NCBI GenBank assembly: GCA_013286385.1
Contig: JABDFU010000012.1
Location: 1-52,540, forward strand
DNA length: 52,540 nt
From: Bacteroidota bacterium
GTDB lineage: Bacteria; Bacteroidota; Bacteroidia; JABDFU01
Reading direction: 5' to 3'
A program made the translations under genes and the position numbers. The stretch's first letter is position 1. Every line of letters begins with the position of its first letter. The notes beneath the pieces were generated by a model, which saw only the letters and a program-made list of their open reading frames with translations, did no database searches and had not been told where the DNA came from. Below are positions 47,198 through 52,540 of the stretch, piece after piece.

Positions 47198-47953
47198 TTA
47201 AATGCTGAGAAGTTTCAATATTTTCTGGATATCCTCGGGCGTATCAATACAGTGGCTTTCATGGTCAGTTACCGCCACTTTAATTTTAAAACCATTCTCC
47301 AGCCATCTTAACTGTTCCAGGGATTCTGCATTTTCAAGGGGGGAAGGCGTTAAAGCTGATATTTTTTCAAGCACATCTGAGCGATAGGCATACATTCCCA
47401 CATGGCGGTAATAGACAAAGTTTTTGTGCCAGTCTTTTGGCTCAATTCCTTTCAGATGCGGAATTACCGAACGGCTGAAATAAAGCGCCTCCATATTCTT
47501 GTTTACAACCACTTTTACTTCCCCTTCATTAAACAGTAAATCCGAAGAAGAGACCGGAATCACGAGGGTAGCCAGTTCGGTATCCCGCTCTGAGATAACC
47601 TCCGCCAACAGGTCAATCTGAGTGGGATCAATGAAGGGCTCGTCCCCCTGGATGTTGATCAGATGACTGAATTTTCCGTTCAGCTTATTCTCTTTCAGAT
47701 TATTCAAGGCTTCAAAGCAACGGTCTGTTCCGCTCTGATGGTCCGATCGGGTCATCACAACCTCCGCACCAAATTTTTTTACATGTTCATAAATTCTTGG
47801 ATCGTCCGTGGCCACAATTACTTTAGAGAGACGGGTTGCATGCATGGCCTGTTCATACACACGCTGAATCATGCTTTTCCCTTTTATTTCAACAAGAGGC
47901 TTTCCCGGAAAACGGGAAGATGCATACCTGGATGGAATAACTCCTAAAATCAT
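47198..47953 (-). CDS. kdsB: 3-deoxy-manno-octulosonate cytidylyltransferase
   Basis: The 251-residue cytoplasmic enzyme activates Kdo (or 8-amino-Kdo) with CTP to CMP-Kdo for transfer to lipid A. It has IPSRYASSRFPGKPL, the VATDD motif, NIQGDEPFI and SLEQLRWLENG. It is the last gene of the leftward Kdo operon. In Shewanella the operon-linked KdsB prefers Kdo8N, so the same preference is plausible here given kdnA and kdnB upstream. Confidence 0.95.
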   Translation of the reverse strand: MILGVIPSRYASSRFPGKPLVEIKGKSMIQRVYEQAMHATRLSKVIVATDDPRIYEHVKKFGAEVVMTRSDHQSGTDRCFEALNNLKENKLNGKFSHLINIQGDEPFIDPTQIDLLAEVISERDTELATLVIPVSSSDLLFNEGEVKVVVNKNMEALYFSRSVIPHLKGIEPKDWHKNFVYYRHVGMYAYRSDVLEKISALTPSPLENAESLEQLRWLENGFKIKVAVTDHESHCIDTPEDIQKILKLLSI

Positions 47954-47966
47954 GAGGTCTGCGAAA

Positions 47967-48683
47967 TCATGGGGTATCCGTTTCTACTATGTTTTCGTGA
48001 TCAAGGGTATAAAAGCCTGTTGAGATCAGATTTCGCAGATCAATGTATTTTTCATAGGCAGGGGAATAGCTCACCCGTTCGTTTAGCACCCTGTCGTAAA
48101 TTCCCTGAAGTCCGATCATCAGTTCGCAGGCTTCACGGAGCGCAAAATTTCCTGATTCACCGGAAGTGATGTAATCCGCAAGTTTGTTTTTTTTAACATA
48201 TCGGTTTAAAAGCGGATTTGATTTGCGTTTGACGAAAATCCGTAATCCGGCTGTTTTTGCGACCGGTAAATCCAGAACATCATCAAATACGAACGCAATT
48301 TCAGAAGGCTTTACAGCGTATCGGTTGCAAAAATGTTCAATGGCTTTGGATTTATCGGCTACTTTAAAATAGCAGGACGTAAAATGTTCCCGTTGGCTGA
48401 GATAAAAAGACGCCCTGTTTTTTTCCCCTGAAAGAACGGCCGTAACGGGTAACTTATTTGTGTTTAGCCAATAGGCAAATCGAAGGAGGTTGGTTCCCAT
48501 TGCGTCTACTTCACTGCAGACGCTGGATCCTTTTTCGTCTTTTTCACCGGTATTAAAAACACCATCCCAGTCAAAAATGAAAGCCTTTATCGTTTTAAGC
48601 CGCAGGGAAATTTTGGGCACCGGGGTAAGAAAGGTACCGCCAATCCCGGTGAACACAGTTTTGATATCGTCCGGTTTAGCCAA
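47967..48683 (-). CDS. HAD-family phosphatase, KdsC-like
   Basis: The 238-residue protein has HAD motifs: FIFDWDGVF (nucleophile Asp and +2 Asp), TAVLSGEKN (motif II Ser), a Lys in DKSKAIEHF, and FVFDDVLDL (motif IV). KdsC removes phosphate from Kdo-8-phosphate, and the position between kdsB and kdsA fits that role exactly. It is longer than KdsC (about 170-190) by an N-terminal stretch of about 30 residues and a C-terminal extension of about 50 residues. Divergence from classical KdsC is clear, so a modified substrate cannot be excluded. Confidence 0.75.
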   Translation of the reverse strand: MAKPDDIKTVFTGIGGTFLTPVPKISLRLKTIKAFIFDWDGVFNTGEKDEKGSSVCSEVDAMGTNLLRFAYWLNTNKLPVTAVLSGEKNRASFYLSQREHFTSCYFKVADKSKAIEHFCNRYAVKPSEIAFVFDDVLDLPVAKTAGLRIFVKRKSNPLLNRYVKKNKLADYITSGESGNFALREACELMIGLQGIYDRVLNERVSYSPAYEKYIDLRNLISTGFYTLDHENIVETDTP

Positions 48684-48690
48684 GAGCGAA

Positions 48691-49701
48691 TTAGCCTTTC
48701 AGGTCCTGAATATCCAGCATTCCAACCGGTTTGCCTTTGCTGCAGACCAGAATGGTATCCACATTGGTCTTTTTGAAGAGTGCGGCGGCTTCATTCAGAA
48801 GCATGTCGGCATCAATTGAAACAGGAGCAGAGTAGTTAAAATCCCCCATTTTTTTATTCAGAAAATCCTTTCCTCCTTTGGGAAGGGCCCTTCGAAGGTC
48901 GCCGTCTGTGAAAATGCCCTTGAGCGTGCCATCTTTGTTCACTATCGTTATACAACCGAACCCATATTCGGTCATTTTAATAATGGCATCTACAAGTTTG
49001 GTTTCAGCTTTTACAATCGGATTGACACCGTTGATGGCCTCCCTGACTTTGACGGTCATTAGTCGCGTGTCTGTGATAAACTGTTCGGTTCCCAGTGTTG
49101 TGAAATGATTCTCTGTCAGGGCCTTTAGAATTTTTAGAGGAACAGTAATCGTATGAACCCCTATATTGATTGCATTTCGAACATGTTCAACACTGCGAAC
49201 AGATGAAAACATTATTTTGGTAGCATATCCGTAATATTCAACGGCGTCCACACATTGTTCAACCAGAGAGAGTGCGTCATGACCCTGATCCTGCAGGCGG
49301 CCTACCAGCGGACAGACGTAGCTGGCTCCTGCCTGCATTGCCATGTAGGCTTGCTGAAGGGTATAAACCAAATGAACATTAACCAGATATCCTTTGTTTC
49401 TTAGCATTTTGCAGGCGCGAACGCCTTCCAGGGAAACGGGGATCTTAAATACGGTTTTTTTGTGATCCAGTCCCAGTTTCAACTGGCGCTCTGCTTCTTT
49501 GAGTATTTCTTCGGCTGTGTTTCCCAGTGCTTCAATCTGCAAAACAGGAACAATTTTTGAAAGCTTGACTATTGTTGCATCGATGTCATTGATGCCTTCC
49601 CTTTGCATAAAGGTTGGAGTGGTGGTGAGGCCGTTCAGAAAGCCCAGTTTAAAGCCTTCTTCTATTTCTTTTAAGTTGGCCGAATCGAGGTATAGTTCCA
49701 T
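48691..49701 (-). CDS. transaldolase/fructose-6-phosphate-aldolase-like domain fused to tandem CBS domains
   Basis: Residues 1-212 form an FSA/TalC-like aldolase: LYLD with Asp6 and Schiff-base Lys86 (TVFKIPVSLEG). The usual TTNPS is TTTPT here (Asn28 replaced by Thr). NVHLVYTLQQA, AGASYVCPLVGR and FSSVR follow. Residues 218-336 are two CBS domains closely resembling those of KdsD, including GIFTDGDLRR (262-271) and PVGMLDIQDL near the end. The fusion lies between kdsA and the KdsC-like gene, where kdsD is usual. The sugar-isomerase (SIS) domain of KdsD is absent. It may supply arabinose-5-phosphate by an aldol route or control the pathway; neither is shown. Confidence 0.85.
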   Translation of the reverse strand: MELYLDSANLKEIEEGFKLGFLNGLTTTPTFMQREGINDIDATIVKLSKIVPVLQIEALGNTAEEILKEAERQLKLGLDHKKTVFKIPVSLEGVRACKMLRNKGYLVNVHLVYTLQQAYMAMQAGASYVCPLVGRLQDQGHDALSLVEQCVDAVEYYGYATKIMFSSVRSVEHVRNAINIGVHTITVPLKILKALTENHFTTLGTEQFITDTRLMTVKVREAINGVNPIVKAETKLVDAIIKMTEYGFGCITIVNKDGTLKGIFTDGDLRRALPKGGKDFLNKKMGDFNYSAPVSIDADMLLNEAAALFKKTNVDTILVCSKGKPVGMLDIQDLKG

Positions 49702-49742: not shown

Positions 49743-50573
49743 TTATTTTCTGTAGCGGACTTCTGTCTGATGCAATTCAATCAGCGGTTTCAAAAATTCC
49801 TCCAGATCGTAAACGCAGAGCTGGCTGGCAGCATCGCAAAGCGCTTTTGAAGGGTCGGGATGTGTTTCCACAAACAGGCCATCCACGCCCGATGCCACAC
49901 CGGCTCTGGAAAGTACGGGCAGAAATTCACGCGCGCCTCCTTTTGCGTCAGCGCTCGGGATTCCGTATTTGCGGATGCAATGGGTTACATCAAAAACAAC
50001 CGGATAACCCAGGTTGTTCAGGTGAAAAAATGCCCTGGGGTCAACAACCAGATCATTGTATCCGAAGGTATAACCGCGTTCAGTGAGAATGACCTGATCA
50101 TTTCCCGCTTCAATGCATTTTTGAAGCGGATGTTTCATGTTTTCGGGAGCCAGAAACTGTCCGTGTTTAATATTGATGACCTTTCCAGTTTTTGCTGCAG
50201 CAACCAATAAGGTGGATTGCATGCACAGATAGGCCGGAATCTGAAGCACATCACAAACTTCGGCAGCTGCGGCAGCCTGCTGGGGATAATGAATATCGGT
50301 CAAAACCGGAAAGCCGAACTGGGCTTTGACTTTTGCCAATACCTTAATTCCTTTCTCCAGGCCTGGTCCGTCATAGAATTGCAAACTACTTCGGTTGTCT
50401 TTCTGAAAGGAAGATTTGTATATGATCTTAATTTTCAACCGCTCAGATACCTCTTTCAGTTTTTCTGCTGTTTTCAGCATAATTGATTCTTCCTCAATCA
50501 CGCAGGGGCCTGAAATCAGAAAAAGATCGTTACTGCCGCAAACAACCGATCCCACTTTTACCGTTTTCTTCAT
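49743..50573 (-). CDS. kdsA: 3-deoxy-8-phosphooctulonate synthase
   Basis: The 276-residue enzyme condenses arabinose-5-phosphate and phosphoenolpyruvate to Kdo-8-phosphate. It has LISGPCVIEEE, YKSSFQKDNRSS, LQIPAYLCMQSTLLVAAA, IKHGQFLAPENM and FVETHPDPSKAL. Length is normal. It lies 8 bp after kdnB and 41 bp before the aldolase-CBS gene on the same strand. Confidence 0.97.
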   Translation of the reverse strand: MKKTVKVGSVVCGSNDLFLISGPCVIEEESIMLKTAEKLKEVSERLKIKIIYKSSFQKDNRSSLQFYDGPGLEKGIKVLAKVKAQFGFPVLTDIHYPQQAAAAAEVCDVLQIPAYLCMQSTLLVAAAKTGKVINIKHGQFLAPENMKHPLQKCIEAGNDQVILTERGYTFGYNDLVVDPRAFFHLNNLGYPVVFDVTHCIRKYGIPSADAKGGAREFLPVLSRAGVASGVDGLFVETHPDPSKALCDAASQLCVYDLEEFLKPLIELHQTEVRYRK

Positions 50574-50581
50574 TTCGTAGA

Positions 50582-51661
50582 TTATAAACGTTTAAACAGA
50601 TTTTTAATGCTTTCGTGGCTGATCTTATCTTTCCAGTCGGGACCGATGGCGTGCAACCACATGTGCGTAAGATTGTACGCAACCGAAGCCATCTGAGAAA
50701 TCTGATCTTCGGTCCAGGTACGGGAAAGATGTTGTGGCAGGACGATCTTGTGTTTTACAAGCATTTGCCTGAATTCCCTGACTCCCTCAGGGTAATAGTC
50801 TTCCAGGTGATTAAAGGCAAGGCAATTGGCATAACAATGACGTGTGCCAAGGATTTTGGAAAGTCCGTAAGACAAAGCATGACACACACCTACCTCAGAG
50901 TAGGTAAGGCTTAATCCTCCCATCATCGAGGCAATCATCAGTTTTTCATCGTTGGCTGCGTTTTGTCCGCAGCCCGGATTTATGAACACATCACGGCAAA
51001 GTTTCAGGGATTGCTCGGCATAGGCATGACTGAAAGCGTTGTTCAGTTTTCCATTTTCAGATTCTACGCAGTGAATAAACGTATCCATACCGGTGTAAAA
51101 CCACCAGTCAGTCGGAACGCTTGAAATAAGATCGGGATCCAGAATAACCTGATTAAATACGGTCCAGTCACATTTTAATCCCAGTTTTTTTTCGGGACCA
51201 GTCAGCACCGCCGTCATTGAACATTCGGCTCCTGTACCTGAAATCGTGGGAACACCAAGATGGTAGATTCCCGGCTTTTTAATCAGGTTCAATCCCTGGT
51301 ATTTTGAGGAAGAGCCTTCATTGGTAAACATCAGTGAACAGGCTTTTGCAATATCCATAACAGATCCTCCGCCAATGCCAACAATACCAGAAGGAAGACC
51401 TTTTTTTTTAAGAATGCAGTCCCTGATTTGATCAACCTGATCAGTAGTAGGTTCTTCGGGGTTTACATCTATAAAAAGCAGAACGTCTTCGGGCTTAACC
51501 GGAAGCCGTTTTTCGAGCTCTTTTCCTTTAAAATAATGGTCTACGATGAAAAGAAAAAAACGGTTATGTTCAGCACGTTTTTCGGATAGCAGAACATCCA
51601 ACTGATTAAAGCTACCACGGCCATAAATGACCTTATCAATATTCTTGAAGTTTTTGTGCAA
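50582..51661 (-). CDS. kdnB: 3-deoxy-alpha-D-manno-octulosonate 8-oxidase (iron-containing alcohol dehydrogenase)
   Basis: The 359-residue group III metal-dependent alcohol dehydrogenase has GIGGGSVMDIAKA for the cofactor, PTISGTGAECS, the metal-ligand region MDTFIHCVESENGKLNN, and VCHALSYGLSK..GTRHCYANC. This matches KdnB, which oxidises the C8 hydroxyl of Kdo to an aldehyde. The adjacent kdnA aminotransferase (2 bp upstream) then aminates it to 8-amino-3,8-dideoxy-octulosonate. The pairing with kdnA and kdsA makes this reading much more likely than a general alcohol dehydrogenase. Confidence 0.88.
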   Translation of the reverse strand: MHKNFKNIDKVIYGRGSFNQLDVLLSEKRAEHNRFFLFIVDHYFKGKELEKRLPVKPEDVLLFIDVNPEEPTTDQVDQIRDCILKKKGLPSGIVGIGGGSVMDIAKACSLMFTNEGSSSKYQGLNLIKKPGIYHLGVPTISGTGAECSMTAVLTGPEKKLGLKCDWTVFNQVILDPDLISSVPTDWWFYTGMDTFIHCVESENGKLNNAFSHAYAEQSLKLCRDVFINPGCGQNAANDEKLMIASMMGGLSLTYSEVGVCHALSYGLSKILGTRHCYANCLAFNHLEDYYPEGVREFRQMLVKHKIVLPQHLSRTWTEDQISQMASVAYNLTHMWLHAIGPDWKDKISHESIKNLFKRL

Positions 51662-51663
51662 GT

Positions 51664-52540
51664 TCAGGCAGTAACCGGTTTCAACGCTTTAGCAACGCAA
51701 TCTGAAATTTTTGAAGCAAGTTCCTTCACTTCCTTTTCTGTCCAGGTGCAGCGGATTCCAAAGGAAATCAGTTTGCCGATAACTTCCTGGGTTTTGGGAA
51801 GCTGAAGACTTGAATAATCCTGGCGATCAGGAGCCAGCTGAGCCGTAAATTTAGCGGCTGAGCGCATTCCCTTCAGGTGATCCCATTGGTTAATGAAATG
51901 ATACATATTCAGAAACCAGTAGTTAAATCCTCCGATAGCAGCTTTGTTCAATTCATTCACGGTGCGTTGCGCTGAGGCCGTGTCGGGTAAAAAAATATTC
52001 AGAAAGGTTGCTGAGTCGCCGGCAGGATCAGGCAACCGGCTGAAACCTATTTCAGGATTTTTGGAGAGTTCAGAAACAAGCAGTTGTTTATTGTGTCTGT
52101 TCTTTTCCAGAATAAAAGGAACCCGTCGGGTTTGAGCAACGGCAACAGCTGCATTGAGTTCGCTGATCCGGTAATTGAAACCAAGAATGGGATGTTTTTC
52201 CATACCCCTGTTGCTTCCGATATGGTCGTGTCCGTGGTCGGTATAGGTTTCTATAAGCTCATACGTTTTTTTGTCGTCGGTAACGATAACTCCGCCTTCT
52301 CCGGCAGTGGCAATTTTGAAAAAGTCGAAGGAATAACTGCCTGATTTTCCGAATAAGCCGACATGCTTGCCTTTATAAGAGGCGGCAAAGGCCTGTCCGG
52401 CATCCTCAATCAGAATCAGATTGTGTTTTTTGCAGGTAGCAAGAATGCTCTCCATTTCTGCCATTCCTCCGCACATGTGCACAAGGCAAACGGCCTTGGT
52501 TTTAGCCGTAATTGCTTTTGCTATTCCGTCGGCACTAAGA
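51664..52540 (-). CDS. kdnA: 8-amino-3,8-dideoxy-octulosonate transaminase (DegT/DnrJ family), partial
   Basis: The open frame enters from the right edge without a start codon; about 291 codons are visible and roughly 100-140 N-terminal residues lie outside. It has LIEDAGQAFAASYKGKHVG, the Schiff-base Lys in SFDFFKIATAGEGG, and the NYRISELNAAVA block of sugar aminotransferases. Paired with kdnB it should aminate C8-aldehyde Kdo with glutamate as donor and PLP as cofactor. The GTG at 52482 is only an internal codon and not a start. Final gene of the window; the operon promoter lies beyond 52540. Confidence 0.88.
   Translation of the reverse strand, partial: LSADGIAKAITAKTKAVCLVHMCGGMAEMESILATCKKHNLILIEDAGQAFAASYKGKHVGLFGKSGSYSFDFFKIATAGEGGVIVTDDKKTYELIETYTDHGHDHIGSNRGMEKHPILGFNYRISELNAAVAVAQTRRVPFILEKNRHNKQLLVSELSKNPEIGFSRLPDPAGDSATFLNIFLPDTASAQRTVNELNKAAIGGFNYWFLNMYHFINQWDHLKGMRSAAKFTAQLAPDRQDYSSLQLPKTQEVIGKLISFGIRCTWTEKEVKELASKISDCVAKALKPVTA

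Follow-up and report, generated by a model that had tools for sequence, protein, structure and literature searches.

Kdo, a sugar of LPS, is regarded as the product of a single conserved pathway that begins with KdsD; both KdsD and KdsA have been studied as antibacterial targets. Here, we analyzed a Bacteroidota window (the whole stretch of DNA examined, 52,540 nucleotides) in which the gene beside kdsA encodes an aldolase–CBS fusion. In one of the closest described systems, the arabinose-5-phosphate isomerase KdsD/KpsF/GutQ (SIS-CBS-CBS), the CBS pair is of the same KdsD type as that of the fusion (with TDGD[LI]RR) and the gene keeps the same company (KdsA, KdsC and KdsB), but the fusion has, in place of the SIS domain, an unrelated class I aldolase barrel as its catalytic part. 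The fusion resembles TalC and FsaA in fold (TM ~0.9 to 3r8r and 3s0c), Asp6, Lys85/86 and the phosphate-side Arg, and differs from them by four pocket substitutions, the C-terminal CBS pair and a sub-cut-off TIGR00875 score (157 vs. 246). Close homologues of KdnB and KdnA from the Shewanella Kdo8N pathway lie in the window's operon, though here they are combined with the aldolase–CBS fusion and a variant KdsA.

A synthetic system is also relevant. The engineered FsaA pathway for glycolaldehyde assimilation (PMC9947464, PMC6298115) would share with the fusion the aldol step from glycolaldehyde and glyceraldehyde 3-phosphate (G3P) to arabinose 5-phosphate (A5P), yet it runs away from A5P through KdsD, whereas the fusion would be a natural and biosynthetic use of that step. 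No description of a transaldolase–CBS fusion, or of a role for one in Kdo synthesis, was found in open-access PMC text.

Domain make-up and operon of the aldolase–CBS fusion

The genes of the operon run on the minus strand in the order KdnA-KdnB-KdsA-fusion-KdsC-like HAD-KdsB (Table 1). In Pfam, the fusion matches TAL_FSA over residues 3–201 (124 bits vs. a cut-off of 27) and two CBS repeats starting at residue 229 (61.8 bits vs. 24). The NCBIfam FSA/TalC model TIGR00875 covers residues 1–211 and stays below the F6P aldolase equivalog cut-off (156.9 vs. 245.95 bits), while the KpsF/KdsD model (60.5 bits) aligns residues 215–329 to its positions 153–267 of 268, i.e., over the CBS half only, so that the SIS isomerase domain is absent. 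An AlphaFold2 model built from 28 aligned sequences has a mean pLDDT of 89, and the best Foldseek matches of the barrel are the TalC-type transaldolases 3r8r, 3s0c and 1vpx, with target TM scores of ~0.9 over the barrel (0.92 for 3r8r); the (beta/alpha)8 fold and the passed Pfam cut-off place it in the TAL_FSA superfamily. A preliminary description of this locus had read a KdsD-like CBS pair without the SIS domain, and these matches bear it out. A search for other fusions of this kind returned 80 further full-length copies from independent genome records (77–90% identical, without internal stops, the record titles being Bacteroidota almost throughout), which rules out a chance or assembly artifact as the origin of the gene.

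Table 1. Features of the fusion and its operon in the window (minus strand; gene order as transcribed).
Feature	Position	Strand	Basis or remark
KdnA-like aminotransferase (8-amino-Kdo), cut by window end	51664..52539	-	PDB 5k8b, 279 bits
KdnB-like iron alcohol dehydrogenase (Kdo 8-oxidase)	50582..51661	-	PDB 5k8c, 411 bits, full length
KdsA, Kdo8P synthase, fusion-associated clade	49743..50573	-	TIGR01362, 332.5 bits vs. cut-off 314
Aldolase–CBS fusion ORF	48691-49701	-	ATG start, 336 aa
Transaldolase/FSA-type barrel of fusion, residues 1-211	49069..49701	-	Pfam and NCBIfam matches, AlphaFold2 model, fold matches
Lys86 codon	49444-49446	-	
Key barrel residues			Asp6, Thr26-Thr27-Thr28-Pro29, Glu57, Lys86, Asn108, His110, Cys130, Leu132, Arg135, Ser167, Arg169
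KdsD/KpsF-type CBS pair of fusion, residues 213-336	48694..49065	-	GIFTDGDLRR, GMLDIQDL; best PDB match 4o9k, tree, motif
Diverged KdsC-like HAD phosphatase	47967..48683	-	KdsC model 52.9 bits, below cut-off 208
KdsB, CMP-Kdo synthetase	47198..47953	-	NF003952, 313.6 bits vs. cut-off 193

The best PDB match of the CBS pair is the equivalent pair of an A5P isomerase, 4o9k (presumably solved as a complex with CMP-Kdo). In a tree it groups with KdsD CBS pairs, with which it has the TDGD[LI]RR motif in common, and apart from those of IMPDH and others; since nodes within the KdsD part of this tree are weakly supported and very long branches carry a few of the distant CBS rows, we call the pair KdsD-type and name no exact sister group. 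CBS profile scores agree, with SIS-CBS KdsD at 57–85 bits (one diverged copy at 39) and IMPDH at or below 43. Tree and scores together rule out a pair of the IMPDH type and agree with the KdsD likeness that the preliminary description had read. By homology with KdsD, the pair would sense CMP-Kdo (or a nucleotide).

Upstream of kdsA lie two genes with matches to KdnB and KdnA, which makes this a predicted 8-amino-Kdo (Kdo8N) operon; the Kdo operon described earlier is thus confirmed and proves richer, the KdnA/KdnB pair having gone unrecognized. Across 97 fusion loci, the neighbors within five genes were the HAD (65 loci), KdsA (40), KdnB (32), KdnA (30) and KdsB (30), with a cluster assigned to the Kdo transferase WaaA equally near in 8 of the 97. 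The fusion is not bound to amination, since many loci lack KdnA/KdnB in their vicinity. These two genes are therefore optional, whereas the HAD and KdsA are constant companions. The HAD itself has no Pfam family at 1e-3 and scores far under the KdsC cut-offs, yet no other neighbor accompanies the fusion as constantly; it is a candidate Kdo8P phosphatase for the fusion module. Several fusion genomes have no TIGR01670 match of any kind; as a test of KdsC absence this model is uninformative, matching in KdsA-less genomes as well.

Distribution of the fusion, KdsD and KdsA

We searched 197 genomes of the class (all at least 95% complete except the window's own, at 65.7%) with KpsF/KdsD, the fusion and KdsA, counting SIS-only proteins of at least 149 bits as KdsD. 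At the threshold used, KdsA was present in 153 genomes and absent from 44. Among the 153, SIS-type KdsD occurred without the fusion in 119 and the fusion without KdsD in 33; none had both, and in the one genome with neither (G012) a contig breaks off within a fusion, leaving its CBS end and the HAD next to it. The corresponding Fisher value (1e-32) ignores relatedness and is not to be read as a probability; in trees, the fusion and the KdsA variant each look to be of single origin, and the count of exclusions takes no account of phylogeny. Yet both types occur within each of five GTDB families (f5, f9, f13, f31 and f33), and the exclusion is thus not one deep split. A phylum-wide sample of 297 genomes held five fusions, all from the same class, which, as the make-up of the sample is not shown, is a weak test of class restriction.

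No SIS-type KdsD was found in the window's own genome, where size, motif and context mark the SIS matches as MurQ-, PgiB- and GmhA-like. Because this assembly reaches only 65.7% completeness, the search was extended to relatives and to complete genomes: judged by size and domain pattern, the fusion-bearing LGM1 chromosome (complete) and G130 (a single contig) have only GlmS, MurQ, PgiB-like and GmhA-like proteins with a SIS domain. A hidden KdsD is therefore rejected for LGM1 and G130, and the search for a SIS-CBS KdsD elsewhere in the genome, called for when the locus was first described, came back empty within the 65.7% complete assembly. The exact exclusion, taken with operon company like that of KdsD, argues that the fusion fills the same pathway slot; its role as the putative replacement for KdsD is well supported, and the earlier proposal of an isomerase-independent route into Kdo gains strong support from the exclusion in KdsA-bearing genomes. 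WaaA was present in all four of the tested genomes that have both the fusion and KdsA.

Four genomes (G044, G076, G103 and G128) have a fusion without KdsA. Here the fusion is only 37–39% identical, Lys86 has become Ser or Arg, and nearly all pocket residues are gone, while the CBS pair is intact. Their loss where KdsA is missing serves as a natural control and ties the catalytic site to KdsA; together with the exact exclusion, it ties the fusion to KdsA and not to central metabolism. We suggest reading these dead-site copies as repurposed regulators or relics. At the G044 locus (L101), the fusion neighbors an M61 peptidase and a phosphodiesterase gene, and similar genes stand beside the fusions of G076 (L100), G128 (L102) and G103 (L103).

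Other Kdo-related genes persist in genomes without KdsA (G002, G008, G014, G017, G044, G128 and others). KdsB was found in nine of nine genomes searched, eight of which have no KdsA, and WaaA is present in G044 and G128. Several KdsA-less genomes also carry a ~340-aa gene with a weak NeuB match directly beside a KdsC-like phosphatase. In these genomes, a different ulosonate (KDN-like) may be made, or some other synthase may stand in for KdsA.

Active site, partner KdsA and proposed reaction

We aligned the fusion with Escherichia coli FsaA (sequence confirmed against 1l6w) and ten free TalC of the class. Asp6, Glu57, Lys86, Arg135 and Ser167 are kept, as is the phosphate-side set Arg135/Ser167/Arg169, while four positions are substituted (FsaA numbering: Asn28 to Thr, Thr109 to His, Ala/Ser129 to Cys, Tyr/Phe131 to Leu). 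In FSA, Asp6 and Asn28 contact the donor, Asn28, Thr109 and Ala129 are donor-pocket positions, and the catalytic water is held by Gln59-Thr109-Tyr131 (PMC13259622); neither the donor Asn nor this triad is matched in the fusion, which has Thr28, Glu57, His110 and Leu132 instead. Lys86, Asp6, Glu57 and the T28/H110/C130/L132 pocket are identical in 80 of 80 loci, and the same signature occurs in all fusion relatives from KdsA-bearing genomes, down to 54% identity. The earlier reading of the sequence (Asp6 and Lys86 kept, TTTPT present, an aldolase site conserved with altered donor positions) thus holds, with the proton-relay positions changed as well. The fusion would thus be a Schiff-base enzyme whose donor and proton-relay site has been rebuilt, not a copy of FSA; because its water triad is altered (Thr109 to His, Tyr131 to Leu), it should not be assumed to follow FSA chemistry.

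It could be argued that the fusion is an ordinary pentose-phosphate transaldolase or F6P aldolase under CBS regulation, with A5P coming from an unrecognized isomerase, as its TAL_FSA family and fold and its retained catalytic Lys and Asp would allow. However, fusion-bearing genomes carry a separate, canonical free TalC that retains N28/T109/S129/F131, so that central metabolism is served separately and the fusion appears as a second, specialized enzyme. As neither Asn28 of the donor pocket nor Thr109 of the catalytic-water site survives in the fusion, where their replacements are fixed, and as the exact KdsD exclusion and the loss of Lys86 without KdsA also speak against it, we consider an ordinary transaldolase highly improbable. 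More improbable still is a catalytically dead scaffold through whose CBS pair the fusion would only regulate KdsA: although pocket residues have changed and the four KdsA-less copies are clearly dead, Lys86, Asp6, Glu57, Arg135 and Ser167 are invariant in all copies of KdsA-bearing genomes, a conservation for which a scaffold has no use, and there would be nothing to supply A5P.

The domain make-up, the operon, the altered conserved site, the KdsD exclusion and the KdsA dependence can be read from the sequences directly; the reaction and the CBS ligand we infer. It seems to us quite likely that the fusion replaces KdsD and supplies the KdsA acceptor (most probably A5P) by Lys86 Schiff-base chemistry, with the CBS pair as sensor. 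Specifically, a Schiff base on Lys86 in the barrel would yield a phosphorylated aldose—most probably D-arabinose 5-phosphate—for the neighboring KdsA to use with PEP, and KdsA, the KdsC-like HAD and KdsB would then lead to CMP-Kdo. The CBS pair would sense a late product (CMP-Kdo or a nucleotide) and tune flux, presumably as in KdsD, and in the window's operon KdnB and KdnA would convert Kdo to 8-amino-Kdo.

A5P corresponds to carbons 2–6 of F6P in the same configuration, so an FSA-like site with a C1 imine in place of the C2 imine would make or bind A5P. Among candidate reactions we would place aldol addition of glycolaldehyde to G3P first and C2-epimerization of R5P, via the same C1–C2 enamine, second. 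The aldol addition is plausible for the fusion by analogy, as FSA forms A5P from these two substrates in vitro (PMC6298115, PMC9947464).

Under the second reaction, the barrel would be an R5P 2-epimerase (or a Ru5P-to-A5P isomerase) and would still replace KdsD: C1 of R5P would be bound to Lys86 as an imine, and removal of the proton at C2 followed by its return on the other face would then release A5P. Such a route would dispense with free glycolaldehyde, and so fits too; R5P is abundant, whereas a glycolaldehyde source is not linked (across the 97 loci, none was found among the conserved neighbors of the fusion, which are only Kdo genes and lineage-specific ORFs). We know of no member of the TAL/FSA fold that acts as an aldose epimerase, which counts against this route, as does the fact that the aldol reaction to A5P is established for FSA. 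On the other hand, the altered residues T109H and Y/F131L are precisely those of the proton relay (role from PMC13259622), and the kept Arg135/Ser167/Arg169 suit a C5-phosphate. On balance we think an epimerase possible, if unlikely. On chemical grounds, we consider aldose–ketose isomerization by way of a ketone–Lys imine unlikely.

The partner enzyme has changed as well. Fusion-associated KdsA forms one clade (100/100 support, branch 0.86) apart from the KdsA of KdsD genomes, with fixed changes A59D, F115Y, R118M, K137H, Q201R and S246C (Asp59, Tyr115, Met118, His137, Arg201 and Cys246 in the window) and a single additional residue near 205, in the loop that follows the catalytic His. At positions 59/118/137/201/246, 30–31 of 31 fusion-clade sequences have D, M, H, R and C, and all 30 other sequences have A, R, K/R, Q and S; the clade retains Lys136, His198, Asp247 and the NRSS phosphate motif. 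Presumably, the positions of Q201 and M118 correspond to Gln188 and Arg106 of Aquifex KdsA, near the A5P site. Besides the KdsA of the window, the clade was seen at loci L087–L099, L105, L106 and L202–L210. As a separate clade with fixed pocket changes, this KdsA suggests that the whole module co-evolved.

Given these altered A5P-pocket residues, the acceptor may not be A5P, or may not be bound as usual. The fusion and the variant KdsA might then use another aldose phosphate or a direct hand-over, a reading that would account for the separate clade, the fixed changes at otherwise invariant positions and the extra loop residue, and for Tyr115 at the place of the Phe (of the PAFL stretch) that belongs to the A5P pocket (PMC6650799). 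It is nonetheless improbable in our view: the KdsA core residues (K136, NRSS, H198 and D247) are retained, the CMP-Kdo synthetase KdsB is of the normal kind, and WaaA occurs as well. Moreover, two genomes (G101 and G132; loci L200 and L201) have a canonical KdsA besides the variant KdsA and the fusion. Neither genome yielded a KdsD, so that no A5P source other than the fusion can be seen for the canonical KdsA there.

Implications for Kdo synthesis in Bacteroidota

About one in five of the KdsA-bearing genomes sampled in the class (34 of 153) is without KdsD and has an unrelated catalytic domain instead. The fusion accounts for what would otherwise appear as a gap, i.e., Kdo genes without an A5P isomerase, and it would be the natural counterpart of the engineered reaction from glycolaldehyde to A5P. 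The regulatory CBS domain was kept, seemingly with the same sensor control, while the catalytic domain was exchanged. We think it reasonably likely that a large part of the Bacteroidota has a second natural route to Kdo, in which an aldolase (or an epimerase using a Schiff base), joined to a sensor derived from KdsD, would feed a co-adapted KdsA clade with no A5P isomerase involved, possibly through an acceptor other than free A5P.
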